Assembly: GCF_900102815.1 (NCBI RefSeq)
Contig: NZ_FNGF01000005.1
Location: forward strand, 124,001 to 188,000
Length of the DNA: 64,000 nt
Origin: Glycomyces sambucus
Lineage (GTDB): Bacteria > Actinomycetota > Actinomycetes > Mycobacteriales > Micromonosporaceae
Direction: 5' to 3'
In this document: piece after piece, positions 1,861 through 36,012 of the stretch
Position numbering within the stretch: position 1 is the stretch's first letter
How the letters are laid out: each line of letters opens with the position of its first letter
The notes under the pieces: model-generated
Told to the model about the DNA's origin: nothing
What the model saw: the letters and a program-made list of their open reading frames with translations, nothing else
The model's database searches: none
Made by a program: the position numbers and the translations under genes

Positions 1861-1910
1861 TCTCAGCGCCGTGTCAGCGGCGTGTCAGCGCGCCCCCGCA
1901 CCGTTGGGGC
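1861..1910 (+). promoter_or_regulatory. Promoter with three 11-bp TGTCAGC direct repeats (copy A), upstream of ABC transporter
   Basis: Units TCTCAGC (1861), TGTCAGC (1872) and TGTCAGC (1883) are spaced exactly 11 bp apart. Seventeen bp after the start of unit 3 is ACCGTTG, the position occupied by ATAGTTG in the two sister promoters at 30373 and 35732. The ATG of the ATPase gene lies 28 bp after the start of unit 3, about where transcription should begin, so the mRNA is probably leaderless. Helically phased direct repeats over the -35 zone are typical of activation by OmpR/PhoB-family response regulators. The regulator is unknown. Confidence 0.75.
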
Positions 1911-2648
1911 ATGAACGAATCCCCGCCCGCCCCGGTCGAGCTCGCCGGCGTCACCCGCGTCTACGGCTCCCGCGGCACCGCCGTGCGCGCGCTCGACGAC
2001 GTCCACATCGCGTTCCCCGCCGGCTCCTGGACCGCCGTCATGGGCCCCTCCGGCTCCGGCAAGTCCACGCTCCTGCACTGCGCCGCCGGCCTCGAACGGG
2101 TCACCTCCGGGAGCGTCCGGATCGCCGGGAACGACATCACCGGCGCCTCCGACGCCGAACTCACCCGGCTGCGCCGCACCGAGATCGGCTTCGCGTTCCA
2201 GACCTTCAACCTCATCGGCTCGCTCACCGCCGAGCAGAACGTCGCCATGCCCCTGCGCCTGGCCGGGCGCCGCCCCGAGCGCGCCGACGTGCACGAGGTC
2301 CTGGCCGCCGTGGGCCTCGCCGACCGCCGCCGCCACCGCCCCCGCGAGCTCTCCGGCGGCCAGCAGCAGCGCGTCGCCATCGCCCGCGCCATGGTCACCC
2401 GCCCCGCCGTCCTCTTCGCCGACGAGCCCACCGGCGCCCTCGACACCAAGGCCGCCCGCGACGTCCTGCACCTCATGCGCCGCATGGTGGACGAGCGCGG
2501 CCAGACCACGATCATGGTCACCCACGACCCCGCCGCCGCGGCCAGCGCCGACCGGGTCGTGTTCCTGCGCGACGGCCGGATCACCGACCGCCTCGACCGC
2601 CCCTCGACCCGCGAGGTCGCCGCGCGCCTCGCCGACCTGGAGGCGTGA
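1911..2648 (+). CDS. ABC transporter ATP-binding protein (LolD/MacB type)
   Basis: 245 residues, the usual length of the stand-alone ATPase of FtsX-type exporters. It has Walker A GPSGSGKST (45-53), a Q-loop near FAFQTFNL, signature LSGGQ (147-151), Walker B ending at Asp171-Glu172 and the switch His in VTHD. It powers the permease encoded next, whose ATG overlaps this stop codon by one base (TGATG). The start at 1911 fits a leaderless transcript from the repeat-type promoter at 1861-1910, and no Shine-Dalgarno sequence is visible. Family members export lipoproteins or antimicrobial peptides, or act as mechanical or sensor modules. The substrate here is unknown. Confidence 0.93.
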   Translation: MNESPPAPVELAGVTRVYGSRGTAVRALDDVHIAFPAGSWTAVMGPSGSGKSTLLHCAAGLERVTSGSVRIAGNDITGASDAELTRLRRTEIGFAFQTFNLIGSLTAEQNVAMPLRLAGRRPERADVHEVLAAVGLADRRRHRPRELSGGQQQRVAIARAMVTRPAVLFADEPTGALDTKAARDVLHLMRRMVDERGQTTIMVTHDPAAAASADRVVFLRDGRITDRLDRPSTREVAARLADLEA

Positions 2649-4570
2649 TGCTCCTGCTGGCCTGGAACACCTTCCGCGAGCGTTGGCAGGTCTTCGCGGG
2701 GGCGATCCTCACCGTGTGCCTCGGCGTGGCGCTCGTCCAGTCGTCGCTCCTGGCGCTCGTCGCCGCCGCGACCGCGCCGATCCCCGCGGGCCTCGCCCCC
2801 GAGGCGGCCCTGGCGCTCCAGGGGGCGTACGACGGGGCGCTGACGCTCCTGTCGATGGTGCTCGCGCTCGCGGCCTTCGTGGCCGTGTTCATCGTCGCCT
2901 CCACCTTCGGGTTCACGGTGGCCCAGCGCCGCCGGGAGCTCGCGCTCCTGCGTCTGACGGGCGCGAGCCGCGGCCAGGTCCGGTCGCTCCTCACCGGCGA
3001 GGCCGTGCTCCTGGGCCTGGCCGGCTCGGTGCTCGGGATCGCGCTCGGGCTGCCGCTGGCGCGGTTCCAGACGTGGCTGCTGGTGCGGCTCGACTTCGCG
3101 CCCGCAGGGTTCGCGGCCCCTTGGCGCCCTTGGGTGGTCGCGGTGTCGCTCGGGACGGGCGTGCTCATCGCGGTGCTCGGGGTCCTCGCGGCGTCGCGGC
3201 GGGCCGCGGCGATCCGCCCGCAGGAGGCGCTGCGGGAGGACGCGGGGGCCGCGCAGGTCATGACGGTCTCGCGGTGGGTCCTCGGGCTGGTGTTCACCGC
3301 GGGCGCGGTGGTGCTGTTCGTGCTGTTCCCGGCCGGCGACGCGGCGATGCCGGTGTGGTTCGTGCAGCTCACGCCGTTCCTGGTGACGGTGCCGCTGGTG
3401 GTCGGGTTCGCGGCGCTGGCGCCGCTCATCGTGCCGCTGGCGGCCGGGCTGCTGGGCCTGGTGTGCCGCGGGGCGCTGGGGGAGCTGGCGCTGGCGAACC
3501 TGCGTTCGGACGCGCGGCGCAGTGCGGCGACGGCGGCGCCGGTGATGGTGCTGTTCGCGTTCACGGCGGGCATCGGCGGGACCCTGGCGACGGTGGGGGA
3601 GGCCGGCCGGCAGGAGCTGCACGCCACTGTGGACGGCGACTTCGCGGTGGCCGCGGATCGCGATGCCACCGCTGCGATCGCGGGGATCGACGGGGTCGCG
3701 GCGGTGTCCGCCGAGACCGAGGCCATGTTCGAGCTGGCGTTCGCCGAGGCGGGCGCGAGCTGGTACGTCGCGGGCCTGGGGACCGTGGTCGACCCGGACG
3801 CTTACGTGGCGACGCATGACATCGCGCCGGTAGCGGGCGACCTGGCCGACCTCTCCGGCGCCTCGGTCGCGGTGAGCCCGTCCGAGGACTACGAGCGCGA
3901 CTGGCGCGTGGGCGACACGCTGCGGATGCGCCTGGGCGGCGAGGAGTTCGACGTGCGGGTGGCGGCCCTGCTGCCGCCGACCGTGGCCGGACCGCACTAC
4001 CTGCTCTCGCCGGACCTGCTGCCCGAAGGGGCCGCCTCGTGGAACCACGTGGTGCGCCTCGCGGACGGCGCGGACCGGGACGCGGTCGCCGCGAGCCTCA
4101 ACGAGATCGGCACCGTGTCCACCGTAGACGGCTGGATCGCCGCGAGCGCCGCCGCGGACGAGCGGCTGACCCGCGACATCATGATCGTGCTCCTGGGCAT
4201 GACCATGCTGTACACGGCGATCGCGATCGTGAACGCGGTGGTCATCGCGGCCTCGAACCGCCGCCGCGAGTTCGCCGCCGCCCGCGTGACCGGGCTCGGC
4301 CGCGGCCAGGTGGTGTGGCTCGCGTTCCTGGAGTCCCAGGCCGTGGTCGCGATCGGGCTGGTCCTCGGCGCGCTCGCGGCGGCCGGCTCGGTGCTCGGCG
4401 CCGCGGTGGCCCTGCGGCACCTCGTGGGGATCACCGCGGTGAGCGTCCAGTGGTCGCTGCTGGTCGGCCTCGCGGTCGGCGCGGCCGTCATCGTGGGGGC
4501 GACGAGCCTGGTCACGGCCTTGTCGGCGACCCGCACGCCGCCGATCCGCCTGGTCGCGTCCCGCGAGTGA
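2648..4570 (+). CDS. FtsX-like ABC transporter permease
   Basis: 640 residues with the duplicated FtsX architecture. TM1 is near residues 17-38 and is followed by an FtsX block with the cytoplasmic RRREL-LRLTGASRGQV loop (about 93-112) and three more helices. Additional helices then lead to an extracytoplasmic domain (about 325-500), and a second FtsX block carries the matching NRRREFAAARVTGLGRGQV loop (about 535-555). The ATG overlaps the ATPase stop, so the pair is translationally coupled. Together they form a MacB/BceAB-like assembly in the cell membrane. The extracytoplasmic insert is only moderately long, and no peptide-sensor kinase is nearby. Confidence 0.9.
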   Translation: MLLLAWNTFRERWQVFAGAILTVCLGVALVQSSLLALVAAATAPIPAGLAPEAALALQGAYDGALTLLSMVLALAAFVAVFIVASTFGFTVAQRRRELALLRLTGASRGQVRSLLTGEAVLLGLAGSVLGIALGLPLARFQTWLLVRLDFAPAGFAAPWRPWVVAVSLGTGVLIAVLGVLAASRRAAAIRPQEALREDAGAAQVMTVSRWVLGLVFTAGAVVLFVLFPAGDAAMPVWFVQLTPFLVTVPLVVGFAALAPLIVPLAAGLLGLVCRGALGELALANLRSDARRSAATAAPVMVLFAFTAGIGGTLATVGEAGRQELHATVDGDFAVAADRDATAAIAGIDGVAAVSAETEAMFELAFAEAGASWYVAGLGTVVDPDAYVATHDIAPVAGDLADLSGASVAVSPSEDYERDWRVGDTLRMRLGGEEFDVRVAALLPPTVAGPHYLLSPDLLPEGAASWNHVVRLADGADRDAVAASLNEIGTVSTVDGWIAASAAADERLTRDIMIVLLGMTMLYTAIAIVNAVVIAASNRRREFAAARVTGLGRGQVVWLAFLESQAVVAIGLVLGALAAAGSVLGAAVALRHLVGITAVSVQWSLLVGLAVGAAVIVGATSLVTALSATRTPPIRLVASRE

Positions 4571-30372: not shown

Positions 30373-30416
30373 CGTCAGCGCGGTGTCAGCGGCGTGTCAG
30401 GGCGGCCGCCGATAGT
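30373..30416 (+). promoter_or_regulatory. Promoter with three 11-bp TGTCAGC direct repeats (copy B)
   Basis: Units CGTCAGC (30373), TGTCAGC (30384) and TGTCAGG (30395), period 11 bp, then the -10-like GATAGT (30411-30416). ATAGTTG begins 17 bp after unit 3 starts, as in copy C. The expected transcript start is near 30423, giving a ~48-nt leader with GAAGGAG before the ATG at 30471. Confidence 0.78.
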
Positions 30417-35731: not shown

Positions 35732-35781
35732 GGTCAGCCCCGTGTCAGCGGCCTGTCAGCGCACCCGCCGATAGTTGCGGC
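35732..35781 (+). promoter_or_regulatory. Promoter with three 11-bp TGTCAGC direct repeats (copy C)
   Basis: Units GGTCAGC (35732), TGTCAGC (35743) and TGTCAGC (35754), period 11 bp, then -10-like GATAGT (35770-35775). ATAGTTG starts 17 bp after unit 3. An ATG lies 28 bp after the start of unit 3, exactly as in copy A, so transcription should start at or next to that ATG (35782). Confidence 0.78.
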
Positions 35782-36012
35782 ATGAACGAGCACCACGCGG
35801 CCCGGACCGCCCCGCCCGTCACCGGCGCCGGGACCCCGACCGCCGTGGGCGAAACGCGAATCCCCGCCGGCACCCGCCGGCCCCGGCCTATCGTCGAGAC
35901 GACGCGGCCGACCGGCCGGCCCGGGACGGCGTCGACCGCACCCGCCACCGCAACCGCTACTGCACGACCGCACACCGCCGAACGAGACCGCAACCCGCGC
36001 AAGGAGCCCATC

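Follow-up and report, generated by a model that had tools for sequence, protein, structure and literature searches.

The window analysed here, a 64-kb stretch of the Glycomyces sambucus genome, contains three short arrays, A, B and C, each made up of three TGTCAGC-type units with a spacing of 11 bp (Table 1). The arrays were present as the first-pass annotation had claimed. The targets that it had named were recovered as well: array A precedes the genes of a MacB-type ATPase and an FtsX permease, and arrays B and C precede the genes of two paralogous small proteins, of which a third copy follows a site elsewhere in the genome (C12:222655). A GH5 cellulase with a CBM2 domain is encoded immediately upstream of array A, at positions 365-1789 of the window.

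Table 1. Features in the window and elsewhere in the genome. Positions with a prefix lie outside the window; all others are window positions.
Feature	Position	Strand	Remark
Array A: TCTCAGC, TGTCAGC, TGTCAGC	1861..1889	+	7-bp units 11 bp apart; sequence, shuffles
Predicted -10 of A: CACCGT	1899..1904	+	predicted +1 = 1911, A of ATG
MacB/LolD-like ABC ATPase, 245 aa, predicted leaderless	1911..2648	+	downstream of A
FtsX-type permease	2855..4570	+	FtsX match starts at 2855 within ORF 1871-4570
Array B: CGTCAGC, TGTCAGC, TGTCAGG	30373..30401	+	sequence, shuffles
Predicted -10 of B: GATAGT	30411..30416	+	predicted +1 = 30423
Small helical protein, 134 aa	30471..30875	+	downstream of array B
Array C: GGTCAGC, TGTCAGC, TGTCAGC	35732..35760	+	sequence, shuffles
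Predicted -10 of C: GATAGT	35770..35775	+	predicted +1 = 35782, A of an ATG
Small helical protein, 135 aa	36013..36420	+	downstream of array C; 63% identical to B paralogue
Site before beta-lactamase-fold hydrolase, 364 aa (hydrolase-364)	C5:7090		
Site before DrrA-type ABC ATPase	C13:309024		
Site before third small protein	C12:222655		
Site before second beta-lactamase-fold hydrolase, 455 aa (hydrolase-455)	C12:410487		
Site before CPBP/Rce1-like protease	C15:110820		
S45, AfsR-like large SARP, 1012 aa	C14:265996-269031	-	outside window

The pattern TGTCAGCNNNNTGTCAGC, with up to two mismatches, matched six times in the window, every time inside array A, B or C. In 100 shuffled versions of the window, the two-unit pattern gave a mean of only 0.32 matches and a maximum of two. 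The set extends beyond the window, as had been anticipated: the genome (5.6 Mb, 16 contigs) holds eight triple TGTCAGC-type arrays at 11-bp spacing, three inside the window and five outside. A search of the whole genome at up to three mismatches returned these eight and five other matches. The latter have two or three mismatches, do not exceed the six matches of the reversed control pattern, and include a shifted register of the array at C12:410487. A two-unit match at C11:38103 was dropped, because it was absent as a triple site from this search. Shuffles, reversed-pattern controls and conservation upstream of small-protein relatives agree in ruling out a chance origin of the arrays, which had been called implausible from the outset.

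All eight sites share three heptamer units with 4-bp spacers, and GTCAG is present in units 2 and 3 of every site, mostly followed by C or G. In arrays A, B and C, the element ATAGTTG (B, C) or ACCGTTG (A) indeed starts 17 nt past the start of unit 3 (3/3). Yet, the -10 element is better read one base earlier, at an offset of 16 nt, because a NANNNT hexamer then appears in all eight sites, with A at position 2 and T at position 6 (CACCGT, GATAGT, GATAGT, CACTCT, CACAGT, CATAGT, GATGGT and GAGCAT). With the transcription start predicted at seven bases after the T at -7, the sites have A at -11 (8/8), T at -7 (8/8), T at -6 (7/8), C at -1 (8/8) and A at +1 (6/8). In this numbering unit 2 spans -39 to -33 and unit 3 spans -28 to -22, so that unit 3 falls within the -35/-10 spacer. 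At the 33 small-protein loci of relatives, where arrays were sought without requiring a -10 element, 29 had an array with three mismatches or fewer; A and T stood at the expected offset in 28 of these 29 cases, and no other offset tested exceeded three.

At sites A, C, C5 and C13 the predicted transcript would begin with the A of an ATG, and at C15 one base before an ATG. The same pattern recurs throughout the genus. Among 74 scored sites (out of 75; one was lost, being either a duplicate or too close to the edge of its locus), an ATG occurs at +1 in 26 and at +2 in 19, while any other offset from -8 to +39 occurs at most once. Since 45 of the 74 sites have an ATG exactly at predicted +1 or +2, the sequence points to leaderless mRNAs for many of these transcripts. 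In 15 of 18 DrrA loci of the genus (L017:9074-9136 and 14 Glycomyces relatives) the ATG at predicted +1 is in frame with a DrrA start preceded by an RBS, at nine different distances of 57-114 nt that are all multiples of three, and in the remaining three the gene start itself lies at +2. This suggests that DrrA may be made in a leaderless, N-terminally extended form alongside the form from the internal start. At site C, translation from the ATG at 35782 would give a 212-aa product in frame with the 135-aa protein. In three relatives (L263, L278 and L289), however, the frame of the small protein differs from that of the ATG at +1 or +2; we rejected the longer reading, and the 135-aa form is taken as the probable product.

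Neither Pfam nor NCBIfam yielded a family for the small proteins at E 0.001, and the best PHROGs match reached only E 0.03. The AlphaFold model consists of six helices (mean pLDDT 88), and its best match in the PDB had an E of 0.34, with none at 0.001. Relatives with at least 60% identity are all from Glycomyces. The first-pass annotation had proposed a comparison of the regions upstream of orthologues, and conservation was found there: 29 of 33 small-protein relatives carry the array within 400 nt upstream, with 0-3 mismatches (an absent -10 being scored as two), whereas shuffling each locus 50 times gave 4-6 mismatches at best. The array was found in 18 of 19 Glycomyces loci and in 11 of 14 others (Nonomuraea, Phytomonospora, Nocardia and Actinorhabdospora), and it persists in other genera where the identity of the small protein is 43-57%. 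No array was found upstream of the small protein in L177 (Glycomyces amatae), L178 (Actinopolymorpha), L186 (Streptomyces) and L189 (Nocardia). Clustering of the neighbouring genes showed that few are common to these loci except among close relatives. A SARP recurs at one Glycomyces, one Nonomuraea and two Nocardia loci, one of these being a partial frame.

On a wider scale, the array with its -10 element (at most one mismatch) matched in 26 of 61 genomes of the family, with control matches in two. It matched in 19 of 22 genomes of the genus (control 0) and, with no mismatch, in 30 of 296 genomes across the class (control 0). The putative targets in G. sambucus are two exporters, one of the MacB/FtsX type and one of the DrrA type, along with three small helical proteins, a CPBP/Rce1-like protease and the two beta-lactamase-fold hydrolases. 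Similar genes follow 58 of the 75 genus sites, including the eight of G. sambucus: the small protein (24), the DrrA-type ATPase (18), hydrolase-455 (6), the CPBP-type protease (5), the MacB-type ATPase (3) and hydrolase-364 (2). The other 17 sites precede other genes or no called gene; individual representatives of these genes proved to be an alpha/beta hydrolase and a DUF4097 protein.

SARPs, which combine an OmpR-type winged helix with a BTAD domain, are known chiefly as cluster-bound switches of antibiotic synthesis. Around the sites of relatives in the family, a BTAD protein was found in 17 of 40 stretches of 15-20 kb, and 14 of these 17 proteins are 850-1075 aa long. The 40 loci take in 47 of the 62 family sites from genomes other than our own, with ORFs called by a simple composition score. 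Among the matches listed, 16 of 70 sites in the family have an S45-like SARP within 5 kb, against 0.39 expected under uniform placement, as do 15 of 75 in the genus, against 0.57; at most 13 candidates per family genome were scored, and related genomes were counted as independent here as in all counts. Nine of these 15 genus sites adjoin the S45 orthologue itself. Sites flank it on both sides in G068, G069 and G071 and on one side in G049, G062 and G070, preceding a hydrolase-455 orthologue and a 188-216-aa protein without Pfam match.

Outside the family, a SARP was found in 15 of 28 site stretches of 14 kb (10 large and 5 small SARPs), and in none of 11 control stretches from the same genomes. 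The 28 loci take in 33 of 43 out-of-family sites; eight of the 15 SARP loci come from one family, and L339 and L346, which look like simple tandem repeats, were kept as misses. In one family outside that of the window, a site-bearing DrrA-type ATPase, 48-49% identical to the Glycomyces one, adjoins a SARP of ~1067 aa at seven of seven loci (L321, L324, L326, L327 and L342-L344). Triple GTCAG sites in other genera also occur near small SARPs of ~206-274 aa (L107-L110, L112, L319, L330 and L333-L335), with several such sites per region at L107-L110 and L330. These small SARPs would be compatible with SARPs of the PapR2 type, situated within clusters.

The regulator had been thought to lie outside the window, and our candidate S45 is indeed encoded elsewhere. 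S45 has a BTAD domain (104 bits), an NB-ARC domain (32.3 bits, cut-off 23.5) and a Trans_reg_C domain that scored above the cut-off in the genome search (30.1 bits) and just below it in the protein scan (25.3 bits). No TPR family matched its C-terminal region at E 0.001; full-length relatives show conservation of this region. S45 can be aligned with AfsR over residues 22-577 (E 1.1e-33), but it is not an AfsR equivalog, as it reached 147 of the 1430 bits required by NCBIfam NF053617.

Among the 11 BTAD proteins of G. sambucus, the recognition helix NALQxxVSR (NALQALVSRVR) occurs in S45 alone; S41 has GALHTQLSRLR and the others diverge further. For the large SARPs, which are homologous, this reasoning is in part circular; the small SARPs near sites offer a small independent check: NALQ...SR occurs at L108, L109, L112, L334 and L335, NALQ...AR at L330, and neither form at L319 and L333. 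Together with L095 and L115, the latter two are the loci where the SARP beside the site deviates from the NALQ helix.

Site number also varies with the presence of S45. The 13 of 22 genus genomes with an S45 orthologue (at least 63% identity) have a mean of 4.8 sites (8, 6, 7, 6, 7, 3, 5, 4, 4, 4, 3, 3, 3), whereas the nine without have a mean of 1.3 (2, 1, 1, 1, 4, 0, 0, 3, 0; Mann-Whitney P 0.0003, with genomes treated as independent of kinship). Each of the six genomes that have 1-4 sites without an S45 orthologue has another SARP with a NALQ helix, which presumably reads these sites. The site-less genomes G075, G076 and G079, compared over matches at E 1e-60, have one S45-like SARP each, with GALQ, no recognised helix and GALH, respectively. 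Hence, within the genus the sites track NALQ-type SARPs, and S45 is favoured since it is the only such SARP found in G. sambucus. In the wider family this pairing does not hold one to one. Among the matches listed, an S45-like SARP occurs in 56 of 61 genomes but sites occur in only 26, which leaves about 31 SARP-bearing genomes without a triple site.

No site was found in the 20 kb around S45 of G. sambucus, nor in 12-kb stretches around its orthologues in G061, G063, G065, G066, G067 and G078, so that the link between S45 and the sites in this genome is by orthology only. Hydrolase-455 of G. sambucus does carry a site but sits on a different contig from S45. Near S45 lies a conserved set of a sensor kinase, a NarL-type response regulator and a DUF4097 (toastrack) protein (L124:3219-9032), which we take to resemble a LiaSR-type envelope-stress system. 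The set also occurs at L103, L290, L292, L298 and L313-L317, the DUF4097 assignment having been made on the L290 copy.

On this evidence, we consider the arrays to be three-unit activator sites of a SARP, with S45 as the most likely reader in G. sambucus, switching on eight dispersed transcripts (probability roughly 0.78). An alternative explanation might be that another SARP reads the sites here, or that several SARPs share them. S41 (C15:224951-227680) is the next most similar large SARP among the matches listed, and other large SARPs adjoin sites in Glycomyces genomes without an S45 orthologue (G073, G077). However, the S41 type occurs in the site-less G075 and G079 and has GALH instead of NALQ, and S38, located 9 kb from the site of the third small protein, has an unlike helix. 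We therefore regard this alternative as unlikely.

The cores of the DnrI and ActII-ORF4 sites differ from the GTCAG-type core described here. The arrays resemble known SARP sites in several respects. SARP sites consist of heptamer repeats with 4-bp spacers, located 8 bp upstream of the -10 element in the case of AfsR (PMC7040171). The consensus of PapR2 is GTCAGSS, identical to the motif of our arrays, and the sites of PapR2 and RedD are direct repeats of this heptamer with the same 4-bp spacers (PMC7040171). Three-unit sites were already known for DnrI, ActII-ORF4, FdmR1 and PimR, the last also with four-nucleotide spacers (PMC10972967). In the afsS promoter of Streptomyces coelicolor, the afs box (-40 to -19, centre -29.5) has two 11-bp repeats, with TTCAGC at -38 to -33, and its TCAGC at -37 to -33 is in the register of our unit 2 (PMC10936776). 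Accordingly, TCAG lies at -37 to -34 in 8/8 of our sites, and units 2 and 3 are in the afs-box register. The afsS -10 element, CACTGT (PMC10936776), is close to CACAGT, CACCGT and CACTCT of our sites, and S45 shares the BTAD and NB-ARC domains with AfsR.

There are differences as well. The arrays have three units instead of the two of the afs box, the T at -38 that is contacted by AfsR (PMC10936776) is a G in 8/8 of our sites, and the putative targets of S45 are not afsS-like. PapR2 and RedD, the latter a small SARP, activate the pristinamycin and undecylprodigiosin biosynthetic clusters (PMC7040171), and the sites of DnrI, ActII-ORF4, FdmR1 and PimR also lie in biosynthetic clusters (PMC10972967). 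In contrast, the candidate here is a large SARP with dispersed targets that lack a biosynthetic look. No announcement of such a regulon was found in the literature searched, as judged mainly by titles and abstract openings.

The first-pass annotation had instead assigned the arrays to an OmpR/PhoB-type response regulator, to be sought beside further copies. PHO boxes and other PhoB-PhoP boxes are 11-bp direct repeats close to the -10 element, at almost the same distance as our arrays, and the TGTCA core resembles the Pho box of E. coli. Geometry alone thus cannot separate the SARP from the PhoB class. Furthermore, OmpR-type DNA-binding domains of the response-regulator kind occur in 15 proteins of the genome, and Glycomyces has a NarL-type two-component pair in the vicinity of S45. 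Yet, OmpR-type response regulators with a receiver domain were not enriched: they were found in 3 of the 40 family stretches, where about two are expected from their density in the G. sambucus genome, and in 0 of 28 stretches outside the family (controls 1/11), whereas SARPs are strongly over-represented in these stretches. Our sites are not linked to response regulators. The core in A, B and C is TGTCAGC and differs, as had been pointed out, from the actinobacterial Pho box core GTTCACC (as quoted in PMC7040171). Gene linkage and the GTCAGSS motif therefore argue for a SARP, and make a two-component response regulator an improbable reader. The architectural intuition behind that proposal was nevertheless close, because SARPs share the OmpR-type winged helix with response regulators. 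CutR of CutRS, which was weighed for secretion stress, was rejected; its published motif TAWATAAA (PMC12802291) is absent from the arrays.

It is hardly credible that the arrays arose by duplication of a single promoter along with its genes and answer to no shared regulator. The small-protein promoters are indeed paralogous and similar beyond the array (leaders of B and C12:222655), but the genes downstream of five of the eight sites are unrelated, and these sites have little in common except the repeats, the -10 and the start region. Moreover, the array is kept in other genera at 43-57% protein identity.

If S45 reads the arrays, its mechanism may resemble that of AfsR, in which the NTPase and TPR parts are inhibitory until ATP relieves the inhibition, and two SARP protomers bind side by side with sigma region 4 resting on both (PMC10936776). 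By analogy, the NTPase and C-terminal parts of S45 would block its activity as long as no signal permits ATP binding. Its SARP domains would then bind side by side on the 11-bp repeats, the register of which is observed. Units 2 and 3 would substitute for a -35 element, and the bound SARPs may recruit RNA polymerase to an otherwise weak -10. The eight dispersed transcripts would start together, several of them leaderless by prediction.

The presence of exporters and hydrolases among the targets suggests that the regulon may serve in defence against noxious molecules, and its likely role, the weakest step of the proposal, would be to export or detoxify harmful small molecules or peptides. STAND proteins are the class to which NLR sensors belong. 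Tentatively, a stand-alone AfsR-like STAND regulator might sense toxic small molecules or peptides inside the cell and drive a chemical-defence regulon scattered over the genome, with exporters and hydrolases, the CPBP-type protease and a new family of small proteins. This regulon would lie outside antibiotic clusters and act largely through leaderless mRNAs, whose start would be set by an array one promoter length before the ATG.

Our results tie one group of large SARPs, by sequence alone, to about eight scattered promoters in one genome. They provide exact predictions for the box, the -10 element, the start site and leaderless translation, together with a small-protein family that bears the box at 29 of 33 loci. 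A job for large SARPs outside antibiotic clusters thereby becomes directly testable.
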